A stretch of DNA of 64,000 bases, from positions 1 to 64,000 of the forward strand of contig JABLYA010000006.1 in assembly GCA_013177855.1 (NCBI GenBank), read 5' to 3'. The notes beneath the pieces are model-generated. The model had not been told where the DNA came from and did no database searches. It saw only the letters and a program-made list of their open reading frames with translations. Position numbers and translations under genes: made by a program. Below, one piece after another: positions 1-64,000 of this stretch (positions are counted from its first letter, which is position 1; every line of letters starts with the position of its first letter). The DNA comes from Ignavibacteria bacterium (lineage in GTDB: Bacteria > Bacteroidota > Ignavibacteria > Ch128b).

Positions 1-1
1 T

Positions 2-118
2 GAAGCTTTTCGCAATGGTAATCTGGGCATTATGGATTACTATCGAATAAAAAATATACAAGCCGACACCAATATGCGCGATTCTTTATCAAAAGGAAAT
101 AATATTGATTCAAAATAA
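2..118 (+). CDS. floA: C-terminal fragment of a FloA-like (UPF0365) flotillin, host-like
   Basis: An open frame enters from the left edge and stops with TAA at 116-118. The 38 residues include [20 protein letters not shown] and ADTNMRDS, which I recognise as the conserved end of FloA/UPF0365 proteins. These are membrane-raft scaffold proteins of bacteria, including Bacteroidota. Codon use is mixed (GCC, GAC, CTG, CGC) and less A/T-biased than the phage genes to the right. The fragment is followed by a TATATTTG promoter and a tRNA-Ser, an ordinary chromosomal arrangement. I read this as bacterial DNA joined to phage DNA near position 224. The family call is from memory of the motif and rests on the C-terminus only. 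Confidence 0.65.
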
Positions 119-143
119 TTTTTTTTTTAATTTAAAAAATTCC

Positions 144-151
144 TATATTTG
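144..151 (+). promoter_or_regulatory. Bacteroidota-type -7 box (TATATTTG) ahead of tRNA-Ser
   Basis: TATATTTG matches the TAnnTTTG -7 element of the Bacteroidota primary sigma factor. It lies 11 nt before the first base of the tRNA, in an A/T-rich leader. The -33 TTG element is not clear. Confidence 0.6.
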
Positions 152-162
152 TGCCCGCGTTT

Positions 163-224
163 GGAGAGGTGGGTGAGTGGCTGAAACCAACAGTTTGCTA
201 AACTGTCGTACTGGGTAACCGGTA
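163..224 (+). tRNA. 5' part of tRNA-Ser(GCU), truncated in the variable arm
   Basis: Readable parts: 5' acceptor strand GGAGAGG; D arm closed by GGT/ACC; anticodon stem ACAGT/ACTGT enclosing loop TTGCTAA (anticodon GCU, serine); and the start of a long class II variable arm, GTACTGGGTAACCGGTA. From 225 the sequence stops following a tRNA: the rest of the variable arm, the T arm and the 3' acceptor strand are absent, replaced by phage tail-spike coding sequence. It cannot give a functional tRNA as it stands. A phage integrating at a tRNA normally restores the 3' end, so this is not a standard attachment site. Confidence 0.8.
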
Positions 225-2089
225 ATGGTGATGATATAAATGGTGATGGTTCTCTTTCATCACCTTTTGCTACAATTAATAAAGCTGAGGAATCAATTAC
301 TACACATGTTTACTCCAATACTGTTGACTTTGTACAAGGTCAAGATTGGGTAATTGATTCAGTAAATATTAATAATGTCAAAGTAGGTGATTTAGTAGGA
401 AGTCCTTATTTACCTCCTTTTTGCAGAGTAAGAGATATAGATGTTCAAAATAATAAAATTTATTTTACAAAACCTGCCACTGATACTGCTAGTTTTAAAA
501 TAAAATACTGCAGGTATAGTTTAATATATGTATTTCCTGGAAAATATAATGTAAACATACTAACTAAAGAAGGAATAAACTATTATTTTGAAGATGGATG
601 TGAAATCATTTTGAATAGTGATCAATCTGGTATGTTTTATTATTATGAAGATGTTAGTTATGCAGCAGTTTATCCAGCTAATATTTATGGTAAAGGTAAC
701 TTTTTTGTAAATCATTATGCTAGTTTCTATTATATTAATCATCCTAGTGGAGGTGATACACGAATATATAATGAAATGACTATTGAGTTCAATCATATAT
801 ATAGTTATTATCTTGGAATTTTTGTTAATTATGCTGCGTCTTTTTCATTGATAGGGAAAAGTATTTATACCGTACTTAGTTACTCAATTTATGACCAAAG
901 AGGAGTATTCACCTTCATCAATATAAATAAGATTTATAGTAAAACTGCTGCTATAGCTTTTGCTACATATGGTTCAACGAATTGTACTATAATATCTTCA
1001 GAAATCGTTTCAGAAACAGGAATAGCAGTAAATTCATGCTACGACCGTATTACTTTATTATGTCCTAGGGTAGTAGGTTTTACATACGGTTTATCAGTTT
1101 ATCATAGCGAAATTAACTGTAGTGGTTACGTTAATACGCTTTACAGCTATAGTGGTGATGTTAAAATATCTAGATGTGACCAATTTGTTTTAAATCAGGG
1201 TTCTATTTTACATCTTAATGGAGGGGTTGATTATCATTTCCCACCTTCTGAAGTAAATGATTATTCATATTTATTCTTTAAAGGTGTTTATGATAGTGGA
1301 GCATTAGTATTAAAAGGTGTATACTCAAAGTCAAAGATTGATATCATGTATGTACAAGGCAATATAAAAGTATATGACGGTGTACATGATATTAAAACCT
1401 CAATTACTTATGGAAATTCTTTAGATATATATGGTGGTGAAGTTAATTATAATCTTAAAATTAAATGTATAGATAATAATCCGCTTTCTCCTGATATTAT
1501 AGCTGGTAATTGGTATGGATTAATAAATTATTATGGAGGTAAAATAAGATTATCAGCTGATGTTGACACAAATAAATATATATTCATGAGGTTTTTCAAT
1601 TTACCTAGTTCACCGAGTGATGTAATATTTGACAATCTGTTAGTTAGAAATCATGGAAATCCTATTTTTAGTGGTGTTTTTAATGACGTTATTCATGTAA
1701 CTTCTATAGGCAATTGCTTAAGTGACGTTAATACTGGTGAAGCTACAAGTCCTAGATTAGAGAAATTTAAAGTAACTGTAATAAATATCACTGAAACTGC
1801 TGGCATAATAATTCAAAATGGGTCAACAAGTAATCAAATTAACAGTACTGTAACTACGAGCTTAGCAGATAGAGCTCTTGATTTCGTGACTCAAATAAAT
1901 AATTTAAATGAAACTTACTATGCTTATCAAGATAATCCTGGTATAGACGAATATTTTTATGTTGAATCAACTGACATTAATTATAGAGCTGTAGTCACTT
2001 GGATTACTACTTCTCAATTAACATCTCAAATATTAATGTTATACTTCAAAGGCATTAATATTGATGCTACAATTTTTAATCCTATGTAA
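212..2089 (+). CDS. Tail spike/fibre protein, beta-helix type, 5' end missing
   Basis: The frame is open from 185, inside the tRNA, to the stop at 2087-2089. From about 212 it reads WVTGNGDDINGDGS then SPFATINKA. This is the N-terminal entry of pectate-lyase-like right-handed beta-helix domains in phage spikes (pattern GNDDnxGdGS..sPFaTIxkA). The first in-frame ATG is at 611, far inside the domain, so the real start is upstream of the host/phage junction and is lost. The following roughly 500 residues are rich in Tyr, Asn, Ser and Gly with irregular strand repeats, as expected for a beta-helix that binds or cleaves surface polysaccharide. No catalytic residues can be assigned. The gene is followed directly by a small ORF, as often seen for spike chaperones. 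Confidence 0.7.
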   Translation, partial: WVTGNGDDINGDGSLSSPFATINKAEESITTHVYSNTVDFVQGQDWVIDSVNINNVKVGDLVGSPYLPPFCRVRDIDVQNNKIYFTKPATDTASFKIKYCRYSLIYVFPGKYNVNILTKEGINYYFEDGCEIILNSDQSGMFYYYEDVSYAAVYPANIYGKGNFFVNHYASFYYINHPSGGDTRIYNEMTIEFNHIYSYYLGIFVNYAASFSLIGKSIYTVLSYSIYDQRGVFTFININKIYSKTAAIAFATYGSTNCTIISSEIVSETGIAVNSCYDRITLLCPRVVGFTYGLSVYHSEINCSGYVNTLYSYSGDVKISRCDQFVLNQGSILHLNGGVDYHFPPSEVNDYSYLFFKGVYDSGALVLKGVYSKSKIDIMYVQGNIKVYDGVHDIKTSITYGNSLDIYGGEVNYNLKIKCIDNNPLSPDIIAGNWYGLINYYGGKIRLSADVDTNKYIFMRFFNLPSSPSDVIFDNLLVRNHGNPIFSGVFNDVIHVTSIGNCLSDVNTGEATSPRLEKFKVTVINITETAGIIIQNGSTSNQINSTVTTSLADRALDFVTQINNLNETYYAYQDNPGIDEYFYVESTDINYRAVVTWITTSQLTSQILMLYFKGINIDATIFNPM

Positions 2090-8188: not shown

Positions 8189-9337
8189 TTATAATATTTC
8201 TACAATTACTTCTGGATAAATATAAAATGTTTTTTCTTTTGGTTCATAAGGGATTTTATTTAAAATATATTTTATTACATTTAATTTAGCAATTCTCTTT
8301 TCATTAGAATCAACTACTACCCAAGGACAATTTTTAGTTGATGTTTTCTGAAACATTTGCTCTTTATATTTTGTGAATAAATCCCATTTAGTCATAGTCT
8401 TTTCATCATTTGGACTAAATTTCCAATATTTCAGAGGATTATTCTGTCTCATTTTGAATCTTAATTTTTGAGTGTCTTGATCAATAGAAAACCAAAATTT
8501 TATAATATAATAACCTTCTTCTAATAAACTATTTTCAAATGGAACTACCTCTTTCATAAAATTTTTATATTCTTCTTCTGAACAATAACCCATGACAGGA
8601 TCATTAACAGCTCTATTATACCAAGAACGGTCATATAATGTCATATGTCCTGGTGCTGGTAATTTTAATTTATATCTTGAAAACCAATCTTTTTTTTCTT
8701 CTTCTGTTGGAATACCAAATGTTGCAATATGACAATATTTAGGATCTAAGAATTCCGTAATAGTTTTAATTACTGAACCTTTACCTGCAGCATCACGTCC
8801 TTCAAAAATAATAACTAATTTATTTTTTGATGTTTTTAACCATTCTTGAAGTCTTAATAATTCAATCTGTAAAGGTCTTAATTCATTAATAAAGTCTTTT
8901 TTACCAACCTTTAATAATCTTTCAGATTTTAATTTTTTCAATTCATCAAACTCTTCATCATTTTCAAATTTATTAGATTTATCTTTAAAATATAATTTTA
9001 TTCTTTTAGGTAATGTTTTAATGTATGAATCAATATATTTCTCTATTCTTGCGTCAGTTATTTTAGGATTTATAGTAAGATTGTGCAAACCTCTGATGAA
9101 TGAGTCTAAGTTTAATTCATATATTGCATCTCTATCAAGAACTTTTTCGAAATTGTCTAATATCCTTTTAATATCATTCTTTTTTAATTTCTTATTAACT
9201 AAAACATCTTCTTTAACATTTAAAATGATTTTTTTTATTTTTTCTTCTAATTTCTTAGGATCTTTAAACATATTTTTAACTAAATCCAAAATAGATTCAT
9301 TAATTGTAAATACTTTGAAGTTCTTCTCTATTGCCAT
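8189..9337 (-). CDS. ppk2: Polyphosphate kinase 2 (PPK2) with N-terminal extension
   Basis: 382 aa. The C-terminal two thirds is PPK2: Walker A EGRDAAGKGS (about 179-188), LPAPGHMTLYDRSWYNRA (Walker B, lid Asp and Arg) and KFWFSIDQDTQKLRF. These enzymes transfer phosphate between polyphosphate and nucleotides, making NDP/NTP from NMP/NDP or storing polyphosphate. About 130 residues precede the kinase domain, more than usual. The extension begins MAIEKNFKVFTINESILDLV, where FKVFTINES looks like the tag of the small proteins, followed by helices. A phage PPK2 could fuel nucleotide synthesis from host polyphosphate, or act in the incoming particle if the tag directs packaging (inference). ATG spacing is normal; the upstream neighbour is convergent. 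Confidence 0.9.
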   Translation of the reverse strand: MAIEKNFKVFTINESILDLVKNMFKDPKKLEEKIKKIILNVKEDVLVNKKLKKNDIKRILDNFEKVLDRDAIYELNLDSFIRGLHNLTINPKITDARIEKYIDSYIKTLPKRIKLYFKDKSNKFENDEEFDELKKLKSERLLKVGKKDFINELRPLQIELLRLQEWLKTSKNKLVIIFEGRDAAGKGSVIKTITEFLDPKYCHIATFGIPTEEEKKDWFSRYKLKLPAPGHMTLYDRSWYNRAVNDPVMGYCSEEEYKNFMKEVVPFENSLLEEGYYIIKFWFSIDQDTQKLRFKMRQNNPLKYWKFSPNDEKTMTKWDLFTKYKEQMFQKTSTKNCPWVVVDSNEKRIAKLNVIKYILNKIPYEPKEKTFYIYPEVIVEIL

Positions 9338-13567: not shown

Positions 13568-16204
13568 ATGGCAACTCCGTTATACAAGTCTATGAAGTCA
13601 AGGGGAACAAGTTTTTATGCGTTCCCTTCTGCCGCAGAGGATATGAACTTGGCTTTCTCAAATGACAATTATAAATTAAATTTTACAAAATTTGTATTAT
13701 TAAATATACCAACACAAGAAATTGTAATATCTACTGGTGTAGATAGAGATCAAACAAAAGGGGTGATGAATTTCGATAAAGATGAAAATGGTCCAAGATT
13801 TTTTAATTTTCAACCAGGTGCAAATAATGATTTACCAACAACCTTTGCTGATCAACTTATTGAATCATTAAGAAACTATGTTGCCAACTATGATTCAACA
13901 TTAAGAGAAAGTAGAATTAATTCAAATACAGACTTTTATAACATTAATGAAAGAGTGACACCTTCAGAAATGATATTTTGGAAATGGTGTAGAAAATTGA
14001 ATCTTATAGATTTAGAACCAGCATTACATAAAATAGATTGGGATAAGAACTTATCTGATTTTGATAATGAAAATGGTACAAATTATGATTATTTTCAAAA
14101 ATATTTATGGAAAGAAAGAGATGTCAATTATTATGGTTGTACTTTAACACAATATACAGGCAATCATCCAATTCTTACTATAACTGGTAATGCTAAATTT
14201 AAAGAAGGTGATTATGTTTATTTATCAGGAACAACAGGTTCATTAACAGCAGAAACAGTTGCTTATGAAATTACAAATGTTATTTATACAACAGCTGATA
14301 CATCATTAGTATTAAATGTTAATAATTATACAGATAGTTCAACATATAATTGTATTGTTTATTTAAAATATAATAGATTAATAGAATATATCGGTGAAAT
14401 ACAAGCTGTTAGTAAAATACAAACAAGTAAAAGAAATTTTACTGAAGTTACGGCTCAAATACCTCACCATGTCGGTAAAACTCCTACTGTTTTATTTAGT
14501 ATTGAAACAAACACAAATTATTATCCAGGTCTTGAAATGCCTATATTACCTATTGAACAACAAGAAGAAATTGTTGGTGCAGAAAATACTAACTCACCAA
14601 TTCGTTTAAGACCACAAGATTATCCAGGCACTTACTTTGGATATTTTGATACAGAAGATAAAACTTACAAATGTGAATCTGGTGACAAATTAAGATATAA
14701 AGGTGATTATTATGGTATTCTATTATCAAATAACATTGGTACAGACGCTGAAAATTATTTTGAAAAACTTCGTGATTTTAATTCAAATAATATTGATGGT
14801 TTAAAAATTGATTTTAATAGAGAACATTATCTTAAAATGAACCTACCAGACTATCAAATTTCCAATTTTGATGAATTTAATGCTGCAAACTTTGATGGAC
14901 CACCAGAAGATTTTAATTTTAATGCTATTCTTTGGTACTATGAAATTGATGATGGTTCAGGCAACGTAGTAAATAATCTTTACGGTATTGAATTTTTAAA
15001 CAATCCTAATGACGATGAAGATAACTGTGATGTAAATAATAGAAGAATTACACCATATAGAAAACTTGTTAGTAATGGAAATCAAGATGGTGTAAGTTAT
15101 ACATTTTCATTAAATATTAATTTTAATATTGATAATGATGTATTACCTTTAACATACGATCCTACAACAATTTATAATATGTTTGGTTTTGATTTATACC
15201 AAAATATATTAAATACGAATGCCAAACTTCAAGATAACTTTACTTATATGATTTCATCTTTCACATGGATGAATGAAGAATTATTTGAACTTAGAAGTTT
15301 AATTTATTCTCAAACAGATATAGATACAATCAAATCACAAATTGAAAATCTTAACAATTTATTGGAATTATATTCTACTTTCCAATTCCAAGATTCAGAT
15401 ACAACTACAATAGAAACGGACTTCTCTGGTACGTATCCTACGCTTAAAGTTAATGTTACTAACACAAAATATTCTGATATTCAAGATATAAATATTAGTA
15501 ATGTTTTAAATTACAATATTACTAATAGTGGTTTAAGTTATGTTGTACCTGTACCTTTATCAAATCAATTATTATTGAATATTTATAATGATAATAACAT
15601 TGTCGAAGATACAGCAACAATAGTATTAAATAGAGATATGGCTTATAAACAAGCCATGGACATTTATATTATGCCAAATATGTCTGAATTACCAGAACAT
15701 CTGAAAATTAATATAATGTATAATGATGGTTTAGGTTCAACAACAGAACAAACTTTATTAAGTGGCATAACATTACCTATTGATTTATCTGATTATGATT
15801 CATTGAATCCAACCGCATCAACATATATGAATTCATATTACACGAATGAAAATGTTTTTACATACGGCCAATCTATATTAACAGGTTTAACAAATTTAAA
15901 AATATATTTAATGGAAGATTTATTTACAGTTGGTGATTATGTTTACATTAATAATTTTTATCTACAAAGCGGTAATACTATAACAGATTTTAGTGGTATT
16001 TATTTCATCACAGGTCACACATCAGGTGATAATTGGGGTAATGGTGCAGATATAACAATAAATTTACCAAGTACAAACTGGTCTTTAAAATCAAAACCAA
16101 AAATTTCTTATTATAAAGGTTTAAAAATTAATATTTTAAGAGTTTCATCTTCTACAACATCATCTATTGAAGATAGGTATAAAATCACAAAAGAATTATT
16201 ATAA
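13568..16204 (+). CDS. Large structural (baseplate-associated) protein
   Basis: 878 aa, beginning MATPLYKSMKSRGTSFYAFP. Long, mixed beta/loop composition with no signal or membrane segment. An N-terminal region includes FWKWCRKLNLIDLEPALHKI, and the rest is repeats of D/N-rich strands with two OB- or SH3-like stretches (KFKEGDYVYLSGTTGSLTAE; DLFTVGDYVYINNFYLQSGN). It opens a coupled cluster: its stop overlaps the next start (TAATG), which in turn overlaps the baseplate gp6/J gene. I infer a baseplate wedge component (place of T4 gp7/gp8), but no specific family motif is visible. Confidence 0.6.
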   Translation: MATPLYKSMKSRGTSFYAFPSAAEDMNLAFSNDNYKLNFTKFVLLNIPTQEIVISTGVDRDQTKGVMNFDKDENGPRFFNFQPGANNDLPTTFADQLIESLRNYVANYDSTLRESRINSNTDFYNINERVTPSEMIFWKWCRKLNLIDLEPALHKIDWDKNLSDFDNENGTNYDYFQKYLWKERDVNYYGCTLTQYTGNHPILTITGNAKFKEGDYVYLSGTTGSLTAETVAYEITNVIYTTADTSLVLNVNNYTDSSTYNCIVYLKYNRLIEYIGEIQAVSKIQTSKRNFTEVTAQIPHHVGKTPTVLFSIETNTNYYPGLEMPILPIEQQEEIVGAENTNSPIRLRPQDYPGTYFGYFDTEDKTYKCESGDKLRYKGDYYGILLSNNIGTDAENYFEKLRDFNSNNIDGLKIDFNREHYLKMNLPDYQISNFDEFNAANFDGPPEDFNFNAILWYYEIDDGSGNVVNNLYGIEFLNNPNDDEDNCDVNNRRITPYRKLVSNGNQDGVSYTFSLNINFNIDNDVLPLTYDPTTIYNMFGFDLYQNILNTNAKLQDNFTYMISSFTWMNEELFELRSLIYSQTDIDTIKSQIENLNNLLELYSTFQFQDSDTTTIETDFSGTYPTLKVNVTNTKYSDIQDINISNVLNYNITNSGLSYVVPVPLSNQLLLNIYNDNNIVEDTATIVLNRDMAYKQAMDIYIMPNMSELPEHLKINIMYNDGLGSTTEQTLLSGITLPIDLSDYDSLNPTASTYMNSYYTNENVFTYGQSILTGLTNLKIYLMEDLFTVGDYVYINNFYLQSGNTITDFSGIYFITGHTSGDNWGNGADITINLPSTNWSLKSKPKISYYKGLKINILRVSSSTTSSIEDRYKITKELL

Positions 16205-25581: not shown

Positions 25582-28566
25582 TTATGGTATTAATTCACTT
25601 GTAAGATCACCATTATCATCAATTTGTACTCTAAATTTAAAACCACTCGGGCTTTCCAAAATAACACCGTTTTTTCCAAGTTTCAAAGTTTCACCAGAAA
25701 AAGTTAGATTAGTTGAACCAGTAATGGTAACACCACTCATAAATAAAATTTGAGTATCTGATGTATCTAGAACAAAAGTTCTATTATCAATATAAGTTTT
25801 TATGGCTTGTGTTGTTGATAATGTATCATTACCTTCCGTTAATCCTGTGTTTGTTGAAATATTTACAATTGTTATACCACTTATTGTAATACTTTGAGTA
25901 TAAATATTATACCATTCTTGTGCAATATGACCAAGCGTTAAAGAACTATTTGATGGTAGAATATTACCATAAATTGTACCACCTGATATTGAATAATAAA
26001 AACCTGTTAATCCTGTTAATAATTGATTAACTTCATTTTTTGAGTAAAAATCAAAAAATGTTATATTACCACTACCAAATGTTGAACCTGTTTGATTTAA
26101 AGTACCATTTAAAATTACTAAATCACCATCTAATTGTAAATCACCTACTACATAATAGTTTCCAAAAATTATATTTTGTGTATTTTCAGCGATTCTGATT
26201 GTGGTTGCAGTAGGTATATAATACCAGTTTTTCCAACTTGAAGTATCAATATAATCTTTGACTGCTTTAGTAGTTGAAATACTTTCATTGCCTTCGGTTA
26301 ATCCAGAATTTGTTGAAATATTATAAATTGTTGATCCACTAAGTAAAGTTAAATAATTAGTATAGAAAGTTTGAGCAGTAATTCCTGAAGGAATATATAA
26401 GTTTGTATATGCTGATTCAGGTATTAATGTGTCACCAGAATCAAACCAGTAATTTTCTGCACCAATTTGAGAATCTATATAAGTCTTAATAGCATGTGTA
26501 GTTGAAAGGGTATCATTACTTTCAGTTAAACCTGTGTTTGTTGAAATATTTGTTATGGTATTATTAATTGTTAAACCACTTGTTACAATATTCGTAACAA
26601 ACATTGTTGATGTTGCTTTATTAAATATAAAGCTTGCAGACATATCAATAAATCCTGTAGCATCATTTGGTGTCCAGAATGTAACAGCACTATCAATTGA
26701 TGTTTCAACCATTGTTACAACATTCTTAAGATTGCCGTCAATACCAATCTTAACTGTACCACCAGATGTTGAAGGATTATCTTGATATATAATATAATAA
26801 TCAGGTCTTATACCTCTATCAATTACAAAACCTGCAATTCCAGTACCACCACTAACTCCAGCACCAGTTTCACCATAATTTAAAGTAATAACATTATCTT
26901 TTATGTATAATTGTTCTGTATTTAATGTAGAAACTGTTCCATTTACTGATAAATTACCTTGAACTGTTAAATTATTGTTTAATACTACATTACCATTTAT
27001 TGTTTGTGGTGTTGATGTAGGATTATATTTGACACAATTTGCTAAACTATCTGTCAAACCACTAACTTTTGACATGTTTAATGTAGCATTAATCCATTGT
27101 GAACCATTATGCCATAAATATTGATATGTGTTTTGTGTTACGTTTGTTATTGTTACATCTTCCAAATCTGGTAAGAATTGAGGTATAGTTCCACTAAAGT
27201 CAGCAGTTGTCCAAGTATTTACATGACCATAAACATCAAAAGTTAAACCAACAACTATATTTGAAAGTGAAGGTGTTGTAGTATTTTGACTTACTGTTTT
27301 TGTAGCATGCGAAATATAAATATCATTATTTAATGTTCCACCACCTGTCAAACCTGAAACACCCATTACAGTTCTTCCAGTCAATACTGCTTCTGGTTTC
27401 CAAGTTAATGCGGTTAAATCTAAGTTGTAATTTGTCCAGCCTGATGTTGTATCATATTTTAAGAAACTATTATTAGTTAATGTTGAAATATTCAATAATA
27501 CATCAGCCAATGATGCCAATGTCAAACCTGAAAGTGCAGCATAAGTTATGTATCTATAATCTAATACTGCTGTTCCAGCAGAAGGTGATAATTGTGTTTG
27601 TGTATAATATAAATCATTATGATTGTGGTCTTTATCAGCATAAAATGATCTGTATAGATTACCACCAAAATATTCATAAGAATAATTTGCATCTATATAT
27701 CTTTGACCTTCATATAAAGTTACTGCTGTTAAACCAGTATTTATAAATGTTCTACCGCTCCAATTTGTTTCACTACTTAATTCACTTATTAATGTAGGAT
27801 CTGTAAAGTATAATGAAACAATTTCTTCACCTTCTTTTATTGTACCACCTGTATCAACAAATAGAATTCTATCAGAAGAACCAACCATAAAGTCAAATGA
27901 TAATTCACCTGACATTACATCACCACTTTTGGCAACAAAATTACCTGTTATACCAGTTGCGGTAATAGGTATCCATTTACCTAAAGCACTATTATACTGT
28001 AAGAATTGTCCATCTGTAGCACCAGTTACAACGTCTGTTAAACTACTTAAAGTATGATTATGACTAATAGGTGAAAATAATGCTGTTGTTTGAGCACTTG
28101 TATAAAATATAGCATTTGTTTGAGCACTTGTATAGTATGGTGATAAATCAATAGTAACTGAACTATTAACCCATAAATTAAGTGAACTATTAAATACCAA
28201 TGCTTGTCCGTGTGTTGCTAATGTAATTCCTGAAGAAACATCTAATAAATTTTTCAAGTATGTAACACCAGTTCCACCAGAAAGATTAAATAATAAATTA
28301 TCAACTTCTACTTTTGAGTATGTTTGTGCAGTTGTATAATAACCACTTAAATCAACATTAGCAGTAACATCAAGCCAAGTGTCTTTTGTATTATTCAATA
28401 TAAAGACTCTACCTTCAAGTTCATTACAAGTAACAACCTGACCAGCATATCTTCTTGCATTAGTCAAATATGCGTTCATGTCTGATTCAGTCGCAAATAC
28501 TGAATCTATGTCTAATGAATTAGCGTATTGTCTTTTGAATTGTAATGGAAATAATAGTTCTGCCAT
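25582..28566 (-). CDS. Tail fibre protein (994 aa)
   Basis: N-terminal domain MAELLFPLQFKRQYANSLDI ... GQVVTCNELEGRVFIL resembles the start of the 469-aa fibre (type B docking domain). The shaft has YYTSAQTNAIFYTSAQTTAL, one SHNHTLSSL, and the module DNVITLNYGETGAGV...VIDRGIRPDYYII. Three to four repeats of the kind GLTEGNDTLSTTQAIKTYID follow. The C-terminus FSGETLKLGKNGVILESPSG and FKFRVQIDDNGDLTSELIP is short, without a large tip. Probably one segment of a multi-part fibre. Ends 61 nt before the next fibre gene. Confidence 0.8.
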   Translation of the reverse strand: MAELLFPLQFKRQYANSLDIDSVFATESDMNAYLTNARRYAGQVVTCNELEGRVFILNNTKDTWLDVTANVDLSGYYTTAQTYSKVEVDNLLFNLSGGTGVTYLKNLLDVSSGITLATHGQALVFNSSLNLWVNSSVTIDLSPYYTSAQTNAIFYTSAQTTALFSPISHNHTLSSLTDVVTGATDGQFLQYNSALGKWIPITATGITGNFVAKSGDVMSGELSFDFMVGSSDRILFVDTGGTIKEGEEIVSLYFTDPTLISELSSETNWSGRTFINTGLTAVTLYEGQRYIDANYSYEYFGGNLYRSFYADKDHNHNDLYYTQTQLSPSAGTAVLDYRYITYAALSGLTLASLADVLLNISTLTNNSFLKYDTTSGWTNYNLDLTALTWKPEAVLTGRTVMGVSGLTGGGTLNNDIYISHATKTVSQNTTTPSLSNIVVGLTFDVYGHVNTWTTADFSGTIPQFLPDLEDVTITNVTQNTYQYLWHNGSQWINATLNMSKVSGLTDSLANCVKYNPTSTPQTINGNVVLNNNLTVQGNLSVNGTVSTLNTEQLYIKDNVITLNYGETGAGVSGGTGIAGFVIDRGIRPDYYIIYQDNPSTSGGTVKIGIDGNLKNVVTMVETSIDSAVTFWTPNDATGFIDMSASFIFNKATSTMFVTNIVTSGLTINNTITNISTNTGLTESNDTLSTTHAIKTYIDSQIGAENYWFDSGDTLIPESAYTNLYIPSGITAQTFYTNYLTLLSGSTIYNISTNSGLTEGNESISTTKAVKDYIDTSSWKNWYYIPTATTIRIAENTQNIIFGNYYVVGDLQLDGDLVILNGTLNQTGSTFGSGNITFFDFYSKNEVNQLLTGLTGFYYSISGGTIYGNILPSNSSLTLGHIAQEWYNIYTQSITISGITIVNISTNTGLTEGNDTLSTTQAIKTYIDNRTFVLDTSDTQILFMSGVTITGSTNLTFSGETLKLGKNGVILESPSGFKFRVQIDDNGDLTSELIP

Positions 28567-33000: not shown

Positions 33001-33465
33001 CCACAAACCATCTTTGTAAACCAAAACTTCATTATTTGTTATTGCACTTAAAGATACATCTATAAGTTCAACTAAATTATGAGTATGTGAAGTTAATGAA
33101 TAATCTTGTAAAATATTTGTTATTGCGGTTTGAGTGTAGTATCTATTATCTAAAGCACCTAAATTAAGTTCTTCTTTAGTATAATAATCTATTTCTGCAG
33201 CTTGTTGTTGAACAATAGTCTTTTGAACAGAATTTAATTTTTCCAATGCAGATATAGCAACAATATTACTTTCAAAATCTAAAACAATATCATTGGAATT
33301 TTCAACCTTTATATAAACAAAATTTGACTTATAATAAAAATATGCTAATTTTGGATCTACGGTGTATTTTAATGTACCATATTTATCGTATATTTTTATA
33401 TACTTGTCCTCTGCGGTAGGTGTTGATATAAAAGTATTTAAAGTATAGTTATATGTTACCATCAA
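30004..33465 (-). CDS. Long tail fibre with 17 HxH motifs (1153 aa)
   Basis: N-terminus VTYNYTLNTFISTPTAEDKY ... KSNFVYIKVENSNDIVLDFE is shared with the 438-aa fibre (type A docking). The shaft is built of YYTKxELxxxxLDDRYY and YSLTSHTH units: I count fifteen HTH and two HSH tripeptides. In T4 gp37, such HxH residues on three chains hold iron ions along the fibre needle, so a trimeric metal-binding shaft is likely. The C-terminal 280 residues (MLYPELFPTLTAPSNGFSLT ... YSMGVQPKSSKGNNYNSPLP) match the tip of the 469-aa fibre. Transcribed with its neighbours. Confidence 0.85.
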   Translation of the reverse strand: MMVTYNYTLNTFISTPTAEDKYIKIYDKYGTLKYTVDPKLAYFYYKSNFVYIKVENSNDIVLDFESNIVAISALEKLNSVQKTIVQQQAAEIDYYTKEELNLGALDNRYYTQTAITNILQDYSLTSHTHNLVELIDVSLSAITNNEVLVYKDGLWVNSSFTFDTSAFTSNYYTIYDLSSSTNDVWINWVHIYNTPTGVSGYGITDVYSKDDVYTKAELNPQPGTPGGTGELDDRYYTKLQTYTKDEIDDNFLSANTSFYSQSEANANFLSANTSFYTREYIDANFSITGHTHPDYSLSSHTHTDYALSSHTHTDYSLTSHTHNQYSLTSHTHSFYGLSNTSHTHVWGDIVTAHTHLWSDIVNTSHTHSDIYYTKLELDGGQLDDLYYTKLQTYTKQEIDDNFLSASTLVYTKSEVENNFLSASTINLFNNYSLSSHTHYFGGLSGISITSPQNNDFLIYYNGLWINSAVSFDLSNYYTKSELDNGQLDNLYIPLAGTTGITGSLIPATNGTFSLGSPTRQWKELWVSGSTIYIDSVPISITSDGKLTVGGEVIETSGETAKNYSVTGHSHDDRYFTKTELLPVNSPLGVGALDDRYYTKLQTYTISQIDANFISASTSLYTKDEIDANFLSANTSFYTQGQIDSLFSNLASIYSITSHTHNLSDLQNTAHTHSLASLSNTSHTHDERYYTQSQINTLLTGFASSTALTSHILMTGATNPHQIGFYDLKTTGHSHNNLYYTKTELNPQPGTPYGTGTLDDRYYTKLQVYDKAEIELLISAATFSGSTAIYYTKTQVDNILTNYSLTSHTHDLNNLTDVDITLPFDGDVLIYSGGTWVNADFDVDLSDYYTSSQTNALLQGYSTTGHTHLAQQVIFNEAGTTAIAVGGIASGTNLENKSIYEIFDMMLYPELFPTLTAPSNGFSLTQAGLHEIGESLTLNFTATFNRGSINPQYTATSPYRSGNPTNYNYNGPNGMTYSIPSTSLSDSQISYNFYVSAGTHTWTNTVSYSMGVQPKSSKGNNYNSPLPAGTTSTQSVSIIGVYPYFGTTSNITTLTKQPLTLMNSAYVEIDMVGEDGVNKQKAKFPVAWSTITGIQFFNTVSNTWEWIGGTKTNSLLTFTTSASSEIIQGITVPYILWTNNTATIGARKLRFYTT

Positions 33466-61513: not shown

Positions 61514-64000
61514 TTAATTATTTTGTGTTGTAGATGATATCACCTCACTTGTTGATGGTATAGCAAATTGTCTATGTCTAATTAATTTAAAAATAATTGT
61601 AAATTCAAATGGTCTTGACTTTGACTCTTCTTCAAAATGAAATCTTAATGCTTTTTTCAAAATTAATGGTGTATCAGAAGCATTCGCTGTCCATGTTGCA
61701 CCTGAATCATACATATCAGGTTTAAAATAAATCTGAATAGGTATTTTTTCAGTTTCTTGTGGACTTATTATGTGAATATTTTGAGTATTTTTATCAACAA
61801 TAGTTGAACTCTGTCCAGCATTATTATATTCAATATATGGATGTATTGTAGCACCAAATCTTTTTGTGTTTGTTGTAGTTGACCATATATTTTCTGTTGG
61901 TGCAACACTTAGTAAAGCACTTGATAGTGAGCCACTTACATTTTTATAATCGGTTGCCAATGCATCATTATAACTTGTTAAATCACTTCCACCATATAAT
62001 GTTATTTGCGAACCATCGATGTTTGCAGTATTATAAATATAAATATATTGATTTGCAAGTTGTGGATAAAGAAAACCATCACTACTAATAAACGAAGGTG
62101 CTGTTGGTCCAGTATTGATAATAGGACCTGTTAAAGCATTGGTTATTGTAAATAAACCTAAGTCATTTTCTTTTGAAACATTTTCAAGTTGTAAATAATA
62201 GTCTTGAATCATATAAACATTGTTTTGGAATACTTTTGATGTGTAACCACCAACACCAATTGATGAATTAAGAACCATATAATCTTCACAATTAACAACA
62301 ACATTTATTACGGAACCATTAATTATTTCTGTTTCTTCTGTACCTTTAAATAATGTAACTTTAACTTCACCTTTAGCTCTCTTAATTGTTTCTTCAAGTG
62401 CTGTGATTTTATCACTCATTTGTTTTAAATAATCAAACAATGTCATAGTATTTCCGAAAGCATCTTTGAAAGAAGTTGCCAATGTTTTGTCAGTGTGTGC
62501 AAAATATTGTTCATTTACATAAAAAGAATCTCCTACATGTTTTAATACACCTTTTGAAGACAATTCATTTTCAAAAGAAACTCTCATTTCCTCTCTTGTT
62601 GCATCTTGTAAAATGAAAGCATTTTCACCAAGAACTTCATTCAAATTGTCAGGAAATTCTATTGTTATAATTTCACTCCAATCAGAATAAATAGGTGATT
62701 CTGGGTATCCAACTTCAGAAATACTTCTAATTCTAATATCCACCTTTTCATTTCTTTGAATTGGAATATCTAATTGATTGATATTAGGTGTATCAGCATC
62801 AGAAACATCTTCTATTTCCCAATACCAATTTCCTGTTGTATTATCATATGTTCTCTTTCTAATATCACTTTTTATCGAAACCCATTGAGAAAAATATGCT
62901 GTTTTTACAGTAAACTGTTGATTGTTAGGTAATGATGTAGTACTTACTGTGCTTTTCTTCATTTCAAAACCATCTGTGGTATTATCTGTTCCTAATTTTG
63001 AACCATAACGATATTGTATTTCAAATCCAATAACTTCTTGTGGTCTATATCCTGATTTTAAAATAGGATCTGGAATATCCCAAAAACCTCTTACTCTAAA
63101 TTTTGGATCAGAAGTTTGTTCTGCTCTTGAATTTGTAATTTGTGAAACATATGATGAATATAATTTTGTTTCACTTTCTTGTTGTTGAATTAACTTATTT
63201 AATTCATTCTGAGCTTTTGATTTCTCAGCTGCAGATTTGAATGATTTTGTATTCAATTCTACTTTTTTCTGAATAATAGCTTGGTCTATTTCTGATAGTT
63301 TAGATTTTGTTGAATTCTTTTGTGCATGTAATTTTTTTAAAGTCTTAAAATCTTTTGTATCAGTTAAATGTTTATTAATCTGAACAACTTTAAAATTATC
63401 AGAAATTAATATTGGTTTATTTGGTTTAGATGCATATTGAGTTGGTATTCTTTTAGAAACCATATCTTTTAATATTGCACCATAATCATATACATAATTT
63501 AAATAGAAATCAGTCATACCTAAACTATTATCTGTATCTAGTACTAAATCATTAGTATAAAAAGCCATACCTTTTGACCAACTTGCACAAATAATATTGT
63601 TATCTGTGTTAATAGGTTTTAGGAAAATTACATTATATTCATCAAAACCAATTGTTACTTTTACTTTTGAATTGGATTCTAATGTTGAATAAAATTCTAA
63701 TACACCTGTACCAATAGGAATAGGATCATATCCTTCTATTCTTTCAACTGAAATTCTAAATAAAGATGAAGATGTATTAATTTCCAAAACTCTATATTTT
63801 GTATAAGAATTTGCTACATTTACTGATAATATATCACCAACAGCTAATGTTCTTGTATTTGAATTTCTATCATAGTATGTCAATGTATTTAGATGATACC
63901 ATAATTTATTATTGATACTATCTCTTTCTATTTTTAATACATTAAAATAACCTTTATAATTTATTACTTTGTAATTTAAATCAAAATATTGATCGTCTCT
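61514..64000 (-). CDS. Large structural protein with coiled coil, 5' end beyond the window
   Basis: The frame runs from the stop at 61514 to the window edge (at least 828 codons). A TTG at 63883 is not the start, because sensible sequence (YFDLNYKVINYKGYFNVLKI) continues upstream to base 64000. The protein has OB-like repeats (LAVGDILSVNVANSYTKYRV), a coiled coil (SEIDQAIIQKKVELNTKSFK; AQNELNKLIQQQESETKLYS), a fibronectin-III-like part (RNEKVDIRIRSISEVGYPES) and a C-terminal beta domain (FEFTIIFKLIRHRQFAIPST). A tail or baseplate component; family unknown. Confidence 0.65.
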   Translation of the reverse strand, partial: RDDQYFDLNYKVINYKGYFNVLKIERDSINNKLWYHLNTLTYYDRNSNTRTLAVGDILSVNVANSYTKYRVLEINTSSSLFRISVERIEGYDPIPIGTGVLEFYSTLESNSKVKVTIGFDEYNVIFLKPINTDNNIICASWSKGMAFYTNDLVLDTDNSLGMTDFYLNYVYDYGAILKDMVSKRIPTQYASKPNKPILISDNFKVVQINKHLTDTKDFKTLKKLHAQKNSTKSKLSEIDQAIIQKKVELNTKSFKSAAEKSKAQNELNKLIQQQESETKLYSSYVSQITNSRAEQTSDPKFRVRGFWDIPDPILKSGYRPQEVIGFEIQYRYGSKLGTDNTTDGFEMKKSTVSTTSLPNNQQFTVKTAYFSQWVSIKSDIRKRTYDNTTGNWYWEIEDVSDADTPNINQLDIPIQRNEKVDIRIRSISEVGYPESPIYSDWSEIITIEFPDNLNEVLGENAFILQDATREEMRVSFENELSSKGVLKHVGDSFYVNEQYFAHTDKTLATSFKDAFGNTMTLFDYLKQMSDKITALEETIKRAKGEVKVTLFKGTEETEIINGSVINVVVNCEDYMVLNSSIGVGGYTSKVFQNNVYMIQDYYLQLENVSKENDLGLFTITNALTGPIINTGPTAPSFISSDGFLYPQLANQYIYIYNTANIDGSQITLYGGSDLTSYNDALATDYKNVSGSLSSALLSVAPTENIWSTTTNTKRFGATIHPYIEYNNAGQSSTIVDKNTQNIHIISPQETEKIPIQIYFKPDMYDSGATWTANASDTPLILKKALRFHFEEESKSRPFEFTIIFKLIRHRQFAIPSTSEVISSTTQNN

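Follow-up and report, generated by a model that had tools for sequence, protein, structure and literature searches.

The stretch of DNA analysed here, a window of 64,000 nucleotides (G000:C6:1-64000), forms the left end of C6, a phage contig of 212,658 bp, rather than a host locus containing a spike gene. It opens with a short segment of bacterial chromosome: within the first 224 bases lie the end of a floA gene (window bases 2-115 code for the FloA C-terminus), a promoter element and the 5' part of a tRNA-Ser gene, and from base 225 onwards the sequence belongs to a tail-spike-like phage gene (Table 1). The promoter element, TATATTTG, is presumably the -7 element of the Bacteroidota type. Two Bacteroidales metagenome-assembled genomes carry intact tRNA-Ser-GCU genes whose 5' part is the same, base for base, as the tRNA portion. 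When the segment was compared with 393 genomes of the order, 345 gave some match, mostly to the tRNA, and the best was a Bacteroidales genome, G272 (223 of 224 positions, C3:3015-3237), with G074 the runner-up at 85%. In G272, floA adjoins an intact tRNA-Ser gene. The initial annotation had read these bases as bacterial, placed the switch to phage sequence within the variable arm of the tRNA and proposed a search against bacterial genomes; that search bears out both statements, as identity to G272 stops exactly at base 224. The co-binned bacterium was rejected as the source of this tail, since it has an intact floA on another contig (C1) and a tRNA-Ser that is just 86% alike.

The spike-like frame is open across the junction, from 185 to 2086, as had been pointed out, yet this continuity means little as evidence of a fusion between host and spike, because just 13 host codons are involved and 9,580 of 20,000 stretches of 39 bases drawn at random from G272 likewise lack a stop. 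No ATG, GTG or TTG occurs in frame before base 611, and the spike therefore looks 5'-truncated; an intact 5' end was not found within the bin. The frame matches PHROG 4577 ("tail protein") with an E value of 7e-5, over 44 residues only (6-49). It had also been suggested that the bases at the switch fit both the tRNA arm and the spike codons, with short homology as the likely cause of the junction. Neither idea fared well. The bases in question, ACTGGGTAACCGGTA, are plain tRNA sequence of the host. The entire frame scores 23.2 bits against PHROG 4577; counted from YWVTG on, the score is 21.2 bits, and it drops just to 19.0 bits once YWVTG is removed. The status of these bases as native spike codons is thus unsupported, and the argument from homology carries little weight. 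The proposed search for the spike among related phages returned no relative in phages, IMG/VR, the bin or four related viral records. A single-sequence AlphaFold2 model of the frame consists mostly of strands, but its mean pLDDT of 36.8 is too poor for use.

Table 1. Features of the left end of C6 and stretches of the phage contigs identical to G272 (positions on C6 unless another contig is named)
Feature	Position	Strand	Basis or counterpart
floA 3' end, last 38 codons, stop at 116-118	1-118	+	PF12127, 47 bits; identical to G272:C3
Exact 127-mer common to G272 contig C3; C6 starts at its base 1	1-127	+	exact prefix of 127
Ten consecutive T (nine in G272), the sole difference within 1-224	119-128	+	alignment to G272:C3
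TATATTTG, promoter element of the tRNA gene	144-151	+	read in the sequence
tRNA-Ser (GCU), first 62 nt, cut within the variable arm	163-224	+	62/62 against intact tRNA-Ser genes
Host bases stop-free in the spike frame by chance, 13 codons	185-224	+	comparison with random stretches
Host/phage junction	224/225		G272:C3 identity ends at 224; host continues CCGGGGGTTCG, window ATGGTGATG
Tail-spike-like phage gene, 5'-truncated, stop at 2087-2089	225-2089	+	PHROG 4577; start-codon scan
Host stretch: floA/tRNA-Ser	1-224		G272:C3
Host stretch: universal stress protein (Usp) and C-terminal part of Lon	73,126-74,538 (1,413 bp)		bounded by ends of G272 C38 and C36
Host stretch: end of M28 peptidase gene	up to 125,061		G272:C74
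Host stretch: 115 bp	206,430-206,544		G272:C23
Host stretch: right tail of C6	212,532-212,658		127/127 with first 127 bases of G272:C72
Host stretch: ATPase-like fragment	C7 63,362-63,767 (406 bp)		between ends of G272 C14 and C38
Host stretch: part of enolase, right tail of C9	C9 15,591-15,717		127/127 with first 127 bases of G272:C70

The phage nature of C6 is evident from matches to helicase, tail fibre and baseplate wedge families, and a length above 200 kb together with structural genes places it among the huge phages. The protein encoded at 61,517-64,000 is 39-40% identical, over 96-98%, to proteins of LR745206.1, LR756502.1 and LR756501.1; the phages carrying its relatives (LR745206.1 and LR756501.1-LR756503.1) span 634-735 kb. 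We take LR745206.1 and LR756501.1-LR756504.1 to be records of Mahaphages or other huge Bacteroidetes phages. Relatives of another protein, at 13,568-16,201, occur on 14 contigs of IMG/VR, of which the longest measure 344-348 kb. Between 185 and 13,419, 13 frames were scanned with Pfam and/or PHROGs, and none of these 13 matched an integrase. The window also encodes a polyphosphate kinase 2 (8192-9337, minus strand; PF03976, 277 bits) with IMG/VR relatives at 44-46% identity, here found in a huge phage.

C6 comes from a bin, G000, of ten contigs and 3,655,875 bases in total. Contigs C1 and C2 seem to belong to the co-binned bacterium. We infer that C5, C7, C8 and C9 are additional pieces of the C6 phage, for a set of five contigs and 520,612 bp, since their G+C is comparably low, a repeat is common to the end of C7 and C6, and homologues of a terminase-like frame on C5 sit on the same relatives (L037, L043 and L045) as homologues of C6 genes. 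That terminase-like frame, at the right end of C5, carries a candidate intein insertion. Arrays of short QLTSLEGAPE-type repeats are common to the right end of C7, the left end of C8 and C6 around position 91,000, and are a likely reason for assembly breaks.

Stretches shared with one Bacteroidales genome

Like the left end of C6, its right end enters host-type DNA. All three bacterial tails tested (C6 left, C6 right and C9 right) match a single genome, G272, and the two right tails have no full match in six other bacterial genomes searched, G000 aside. For a wider comparison, 120 pieces of 80 G272 contigs (2,082,890 bases, with 151 contig ends) were searched for exact matches of at least 30 bp against 266,375 of the 520,612 phage bases. 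Reversed G272 sequence, used as a control, gave no match of this length. The matches comprise an insertion sequence (IS), diverged homologues, a single CRISPR spacer of 30 bp and seven host-identical stretches, four of them interior to phage contigs and three at contig ends (Table 1). Across approximately 1.2 kb of comparable sequence these stretches show no substitutions; they differ by three small indels, each within a short repeat (T9/T10, AAA/AA and TCTC/TC), two of which fall exactly at a 127-base boundary.

The same length recurs on the bacterial side. Seven of the 151 contig ends of G272 stop 126-127 bases inside host stretches: C14 left, C36 left, C38 left and right, C70 left, C72 left and C74 right. 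Contig ends of G272 also have exact 127-mers in common with one another, and the ends of C6 and C9 fall on 127-mers of this type too. The two bins probably derive from one assembly graph with a word length of 127. The 115-bp stretch is shorter than this word and therefore could not be produced by a join through a shared word. At the 224/225 junction the bacterial contig does not branch, as G272 C3 runs through the tRNA unbroken.

The 1,413-bp and 406-bp stretches can be delimited on both sides, and the homology at their breakpoints is 0-1 bp, unlike template switching at homology. With them removed, a phage frame free of stops spans each site (84 and 104 codons, respectively). By themselves such restored frames are weak evidence, because 183 of 300 random removals of 1,413 bp also leave a spanning frame of at least 100 amino acids. 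An empty site was sought in related phages: the nearest record, 79-80% identical at C6 60,510-64,996, has no match to C6 69,001-80,000, and no relative was found for the protein at C6 71,502-72,902.

Displaced copies of the phage's own genes occur as well. C6 207,735-207,931 is 98.5% identical to 33,066-33,262, and C6 207,934-208,071 is an inverted copy, 96.4% identical to 26,877-27,016. Because these copies have diverged from their sources by 1.5-3.6%, they suggest that patching of this kind goes on in vivo. Two patchwork zones can be recognised on C6, at 205,980-208,320 and 211,900-212,658, with parts of own genes from 33,066-33,262, 26,877-27,016, 179,375-179,471 and 120,967/143,215; these zones also hold a lipoprotein-like fragment and the host piece of 115 bp. 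Elsewhere, at C6:124,282-124,593, the C-terminal half of a PDDEXK_3 protein is joined to an unrelated N-terminus, possibly a further patched fragment.

The probable host

Two further features connect the phage to G272. An IS with a DDE transposase lies at C6 195,064-196,421 and is present at 16 of the 151 G272 contig ends, where its terminal 125-130 bp are identical or almost so. The phage also carries a CRISPR array (C7:771-1481) with a 36-bp repeat, ATTAGAAAAACATTGCAAAATTAAAGGGGTTACACC, in two blocks of five and three repeats and with six spacers of 29-30 bp. One of the six is identical at 30 of 30 positions to G272:C67:8401-8430, within a gene on a provirus-like contig that also bears integrase-like and packaging-ATPase-like frames (names read off the translations). 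The alternative that this 30-bp match in C7 marks an insertion with target duplication was rejected, as it is a CRISPR spacer. On the strength of this common IS and of the spacer that hits a G272 provirus, we regard G272 as the probable host of the phage. Diverged homologues are also shared, namely a grpE/dnaJ-like region with G272:C5 and a secreted protein with G272:C23, both names being our own reading.

G272 has CRISPR arrays of its own, of one repeat type, at C20:163-2774 and C32:40,011-40,406 (36 and 6 copies found). None of 43 candidate G272 spacers, three of them from a doubtful array on C3, matched the 266,375 phage bases covered (of 520,612) with up to three mismatches.

Origin of the junctions

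How did host sequence come to lie on the phage contigs? We lean, by a little, towards capture, in which a fragment of the G272 chromosome would have been taken into the huge phage by homology-poor joining in infected cells. Infected cells contain plentiful broken host DNA, and the likeliest route is that host pieces were end-joined into breaks in the phage DNA during replication or repair. At the left end of C6, illegitimate, homology-poor recombination would have joined one such piece, out of at least seven in this phage genome, to the tail-spike-like gene, replacing or interrupting its 5' end and leaving a spike without a normal start codon. C6 would end at base 1 because the host genome carries the piece too, which makes the assembly graph branch. 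Observed directly are the identity to G272, the remaining host stretches, the branching at exactly 127 bases, the IS common to phage and G272, and the CRISPR spacer; by inference, the junctions would have been present in living phage DNA and would have arisen by end joining. A broader version, which we put forward tentatively and at somewhat less than an even chance, is that a huge phage lineage is now littered with scraps of approximately 0.1-1.4 kb from its current host, set in and between genes by homology-free end-joining, along with displaced copies of its own genes.

A strong rival, plausible though short of an even chance, is that the phage has no such joints and that chimeric reads, whole-genome amplification, or errors of the assembler or of gap filling created them. 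Three of the seven stretches do lie at contig ends, the contigs meet at exact 127-mers, which are the mark of a de Bruijn word, and differences confined to indels and placed at word boundaries are what assembly seams would give; the indels are also of a type made by gap filling or long-read consensus. The lack of an intact spike 5' end in the bin and the unbroken course of G272 C3 through the tRNA point the same way, the latter leaving this junction with no separate backing from the bacterial contigs. Also on this side are the empty sites, none of which was seen in a related phage, and the CRISPR arrays of G272, whose 43 candidate spacers gave no match to the phage bases covered. Such artefacts fit the interior of the contigs less well. 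Stretches flanked by phage sequence on both sides are hard to obtain by chance joining of molecules, and the 115-bp interior stretch is neither at a contig end nor as long as the shared word. In addition, the contigs of the bacterium break at identical base positions, the breakpoint homology is 0-1 bp where measurable, and all partners are a single genome that is linked to the phage by a common IS and a CRISPR target. The initial annotation had named the right pair of options, chimera or illegitimate recombination, but its picture of a spike placed in a tRNA gene was reversed: a host fragment lies on a phage contig, and the tRNA is intact in G272.

A border that cuts a tRNA gene naturally brings to mind site-specific integration of the phage into the host tRNA-Ser gene, with attL at 224/225. 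This is extremely improbable, and in its simple form it was rejected. The cut falls in the variable arm, and the 3' half of the tRNA is not restored, as had been remarked from the outset: ARAGORN found no tRNA-Ser in the window, in C6 64,001-184,000 or in 190,001-212,658, and the 16-mer of the variable arm has no second copy in the scanned parts of C6 with up to two mismatches allowed. Moreover, the tRNA locus is intact in G272, and C6 ends at two host loci, G272:C3 on the left and G272:C72, itself prophage-like, on the right, with five more stretches at unrelated loci; host stretches at differing loci therefore speak against integration at the tRNA. It is also most unlikely that the capture was useful, with the tRNA promoter (TATATTTG) driving expression of a spike variant. 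The promoter element does lie approximately 75 bases upstream of the spike sequence and in the same direction, but the start-codon scan leaves the first part of the spike frame without a place to begin.

Relation to known systems

Phage mosaicism by illegitimate recombination yields homology-free junctions inside genes or at gene edges, and such junctions are common to both cases. The usual mosaic pieces, however, are older and mostly phage-derived, with genes kept working, whereas here near-identical host chromosome is found and genes are broken. Prophages and integrative and conjugative elements that target tRNA genes likewise have a tRNA gene as one border; in contrast, the present case has a cut in the variable arm, no restored tRNA and no second border at the same locus. 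Chimeric ends of metagenome contigs resemble it in having brief foreign tails that stop where the graph branches at the word length, but in this case some stretches are interior, and contigs of the bacterium break at matching positions.

Huge phages have been described with large contigs, phage-carried CRISPR arrays and predicted Bacteroidetes hosts, and some of these arrays hold spacers against other phages (passages of Al-Shayeb et al. 2020, PMC7162821). In these passages the Mahaphages and other huge Bacteroidetes phages are similar to the present phage in contig size, CRISPR arrays and link to a Bacteroidetes host, whereas host-identical chromosome fragments within the genome go unmentioned (PMC7162821). 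Mahaphage likeness here refers to the protein similarity of one gene (61,517-64,000), and, as opposed to the Mahaphages, the phage is represented by five putatively assigned contigs (520,612 bp) rather than by a complete genome. A literature search at the level of listings, together with the PMC7162821 passages, found no description of a huge phage genome littered with pieces of host chromosome.

Both principal readings have consequences. If the stretches are artefacts, graph-based assemblies can put host sequence into the interior of phage contigs and not just at their ends, and such stretches would mislead host prediction as well as claims of gene transfer. If they are real, huge phages gain random host debris beyond whole useful genes. 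The uptake would be recent enough for near-identity, so that the fragments name the host directly and provide recent insertions to study. Should the littering prove true, phage genomes could be observed directly as they grow by taking up host debris at random.
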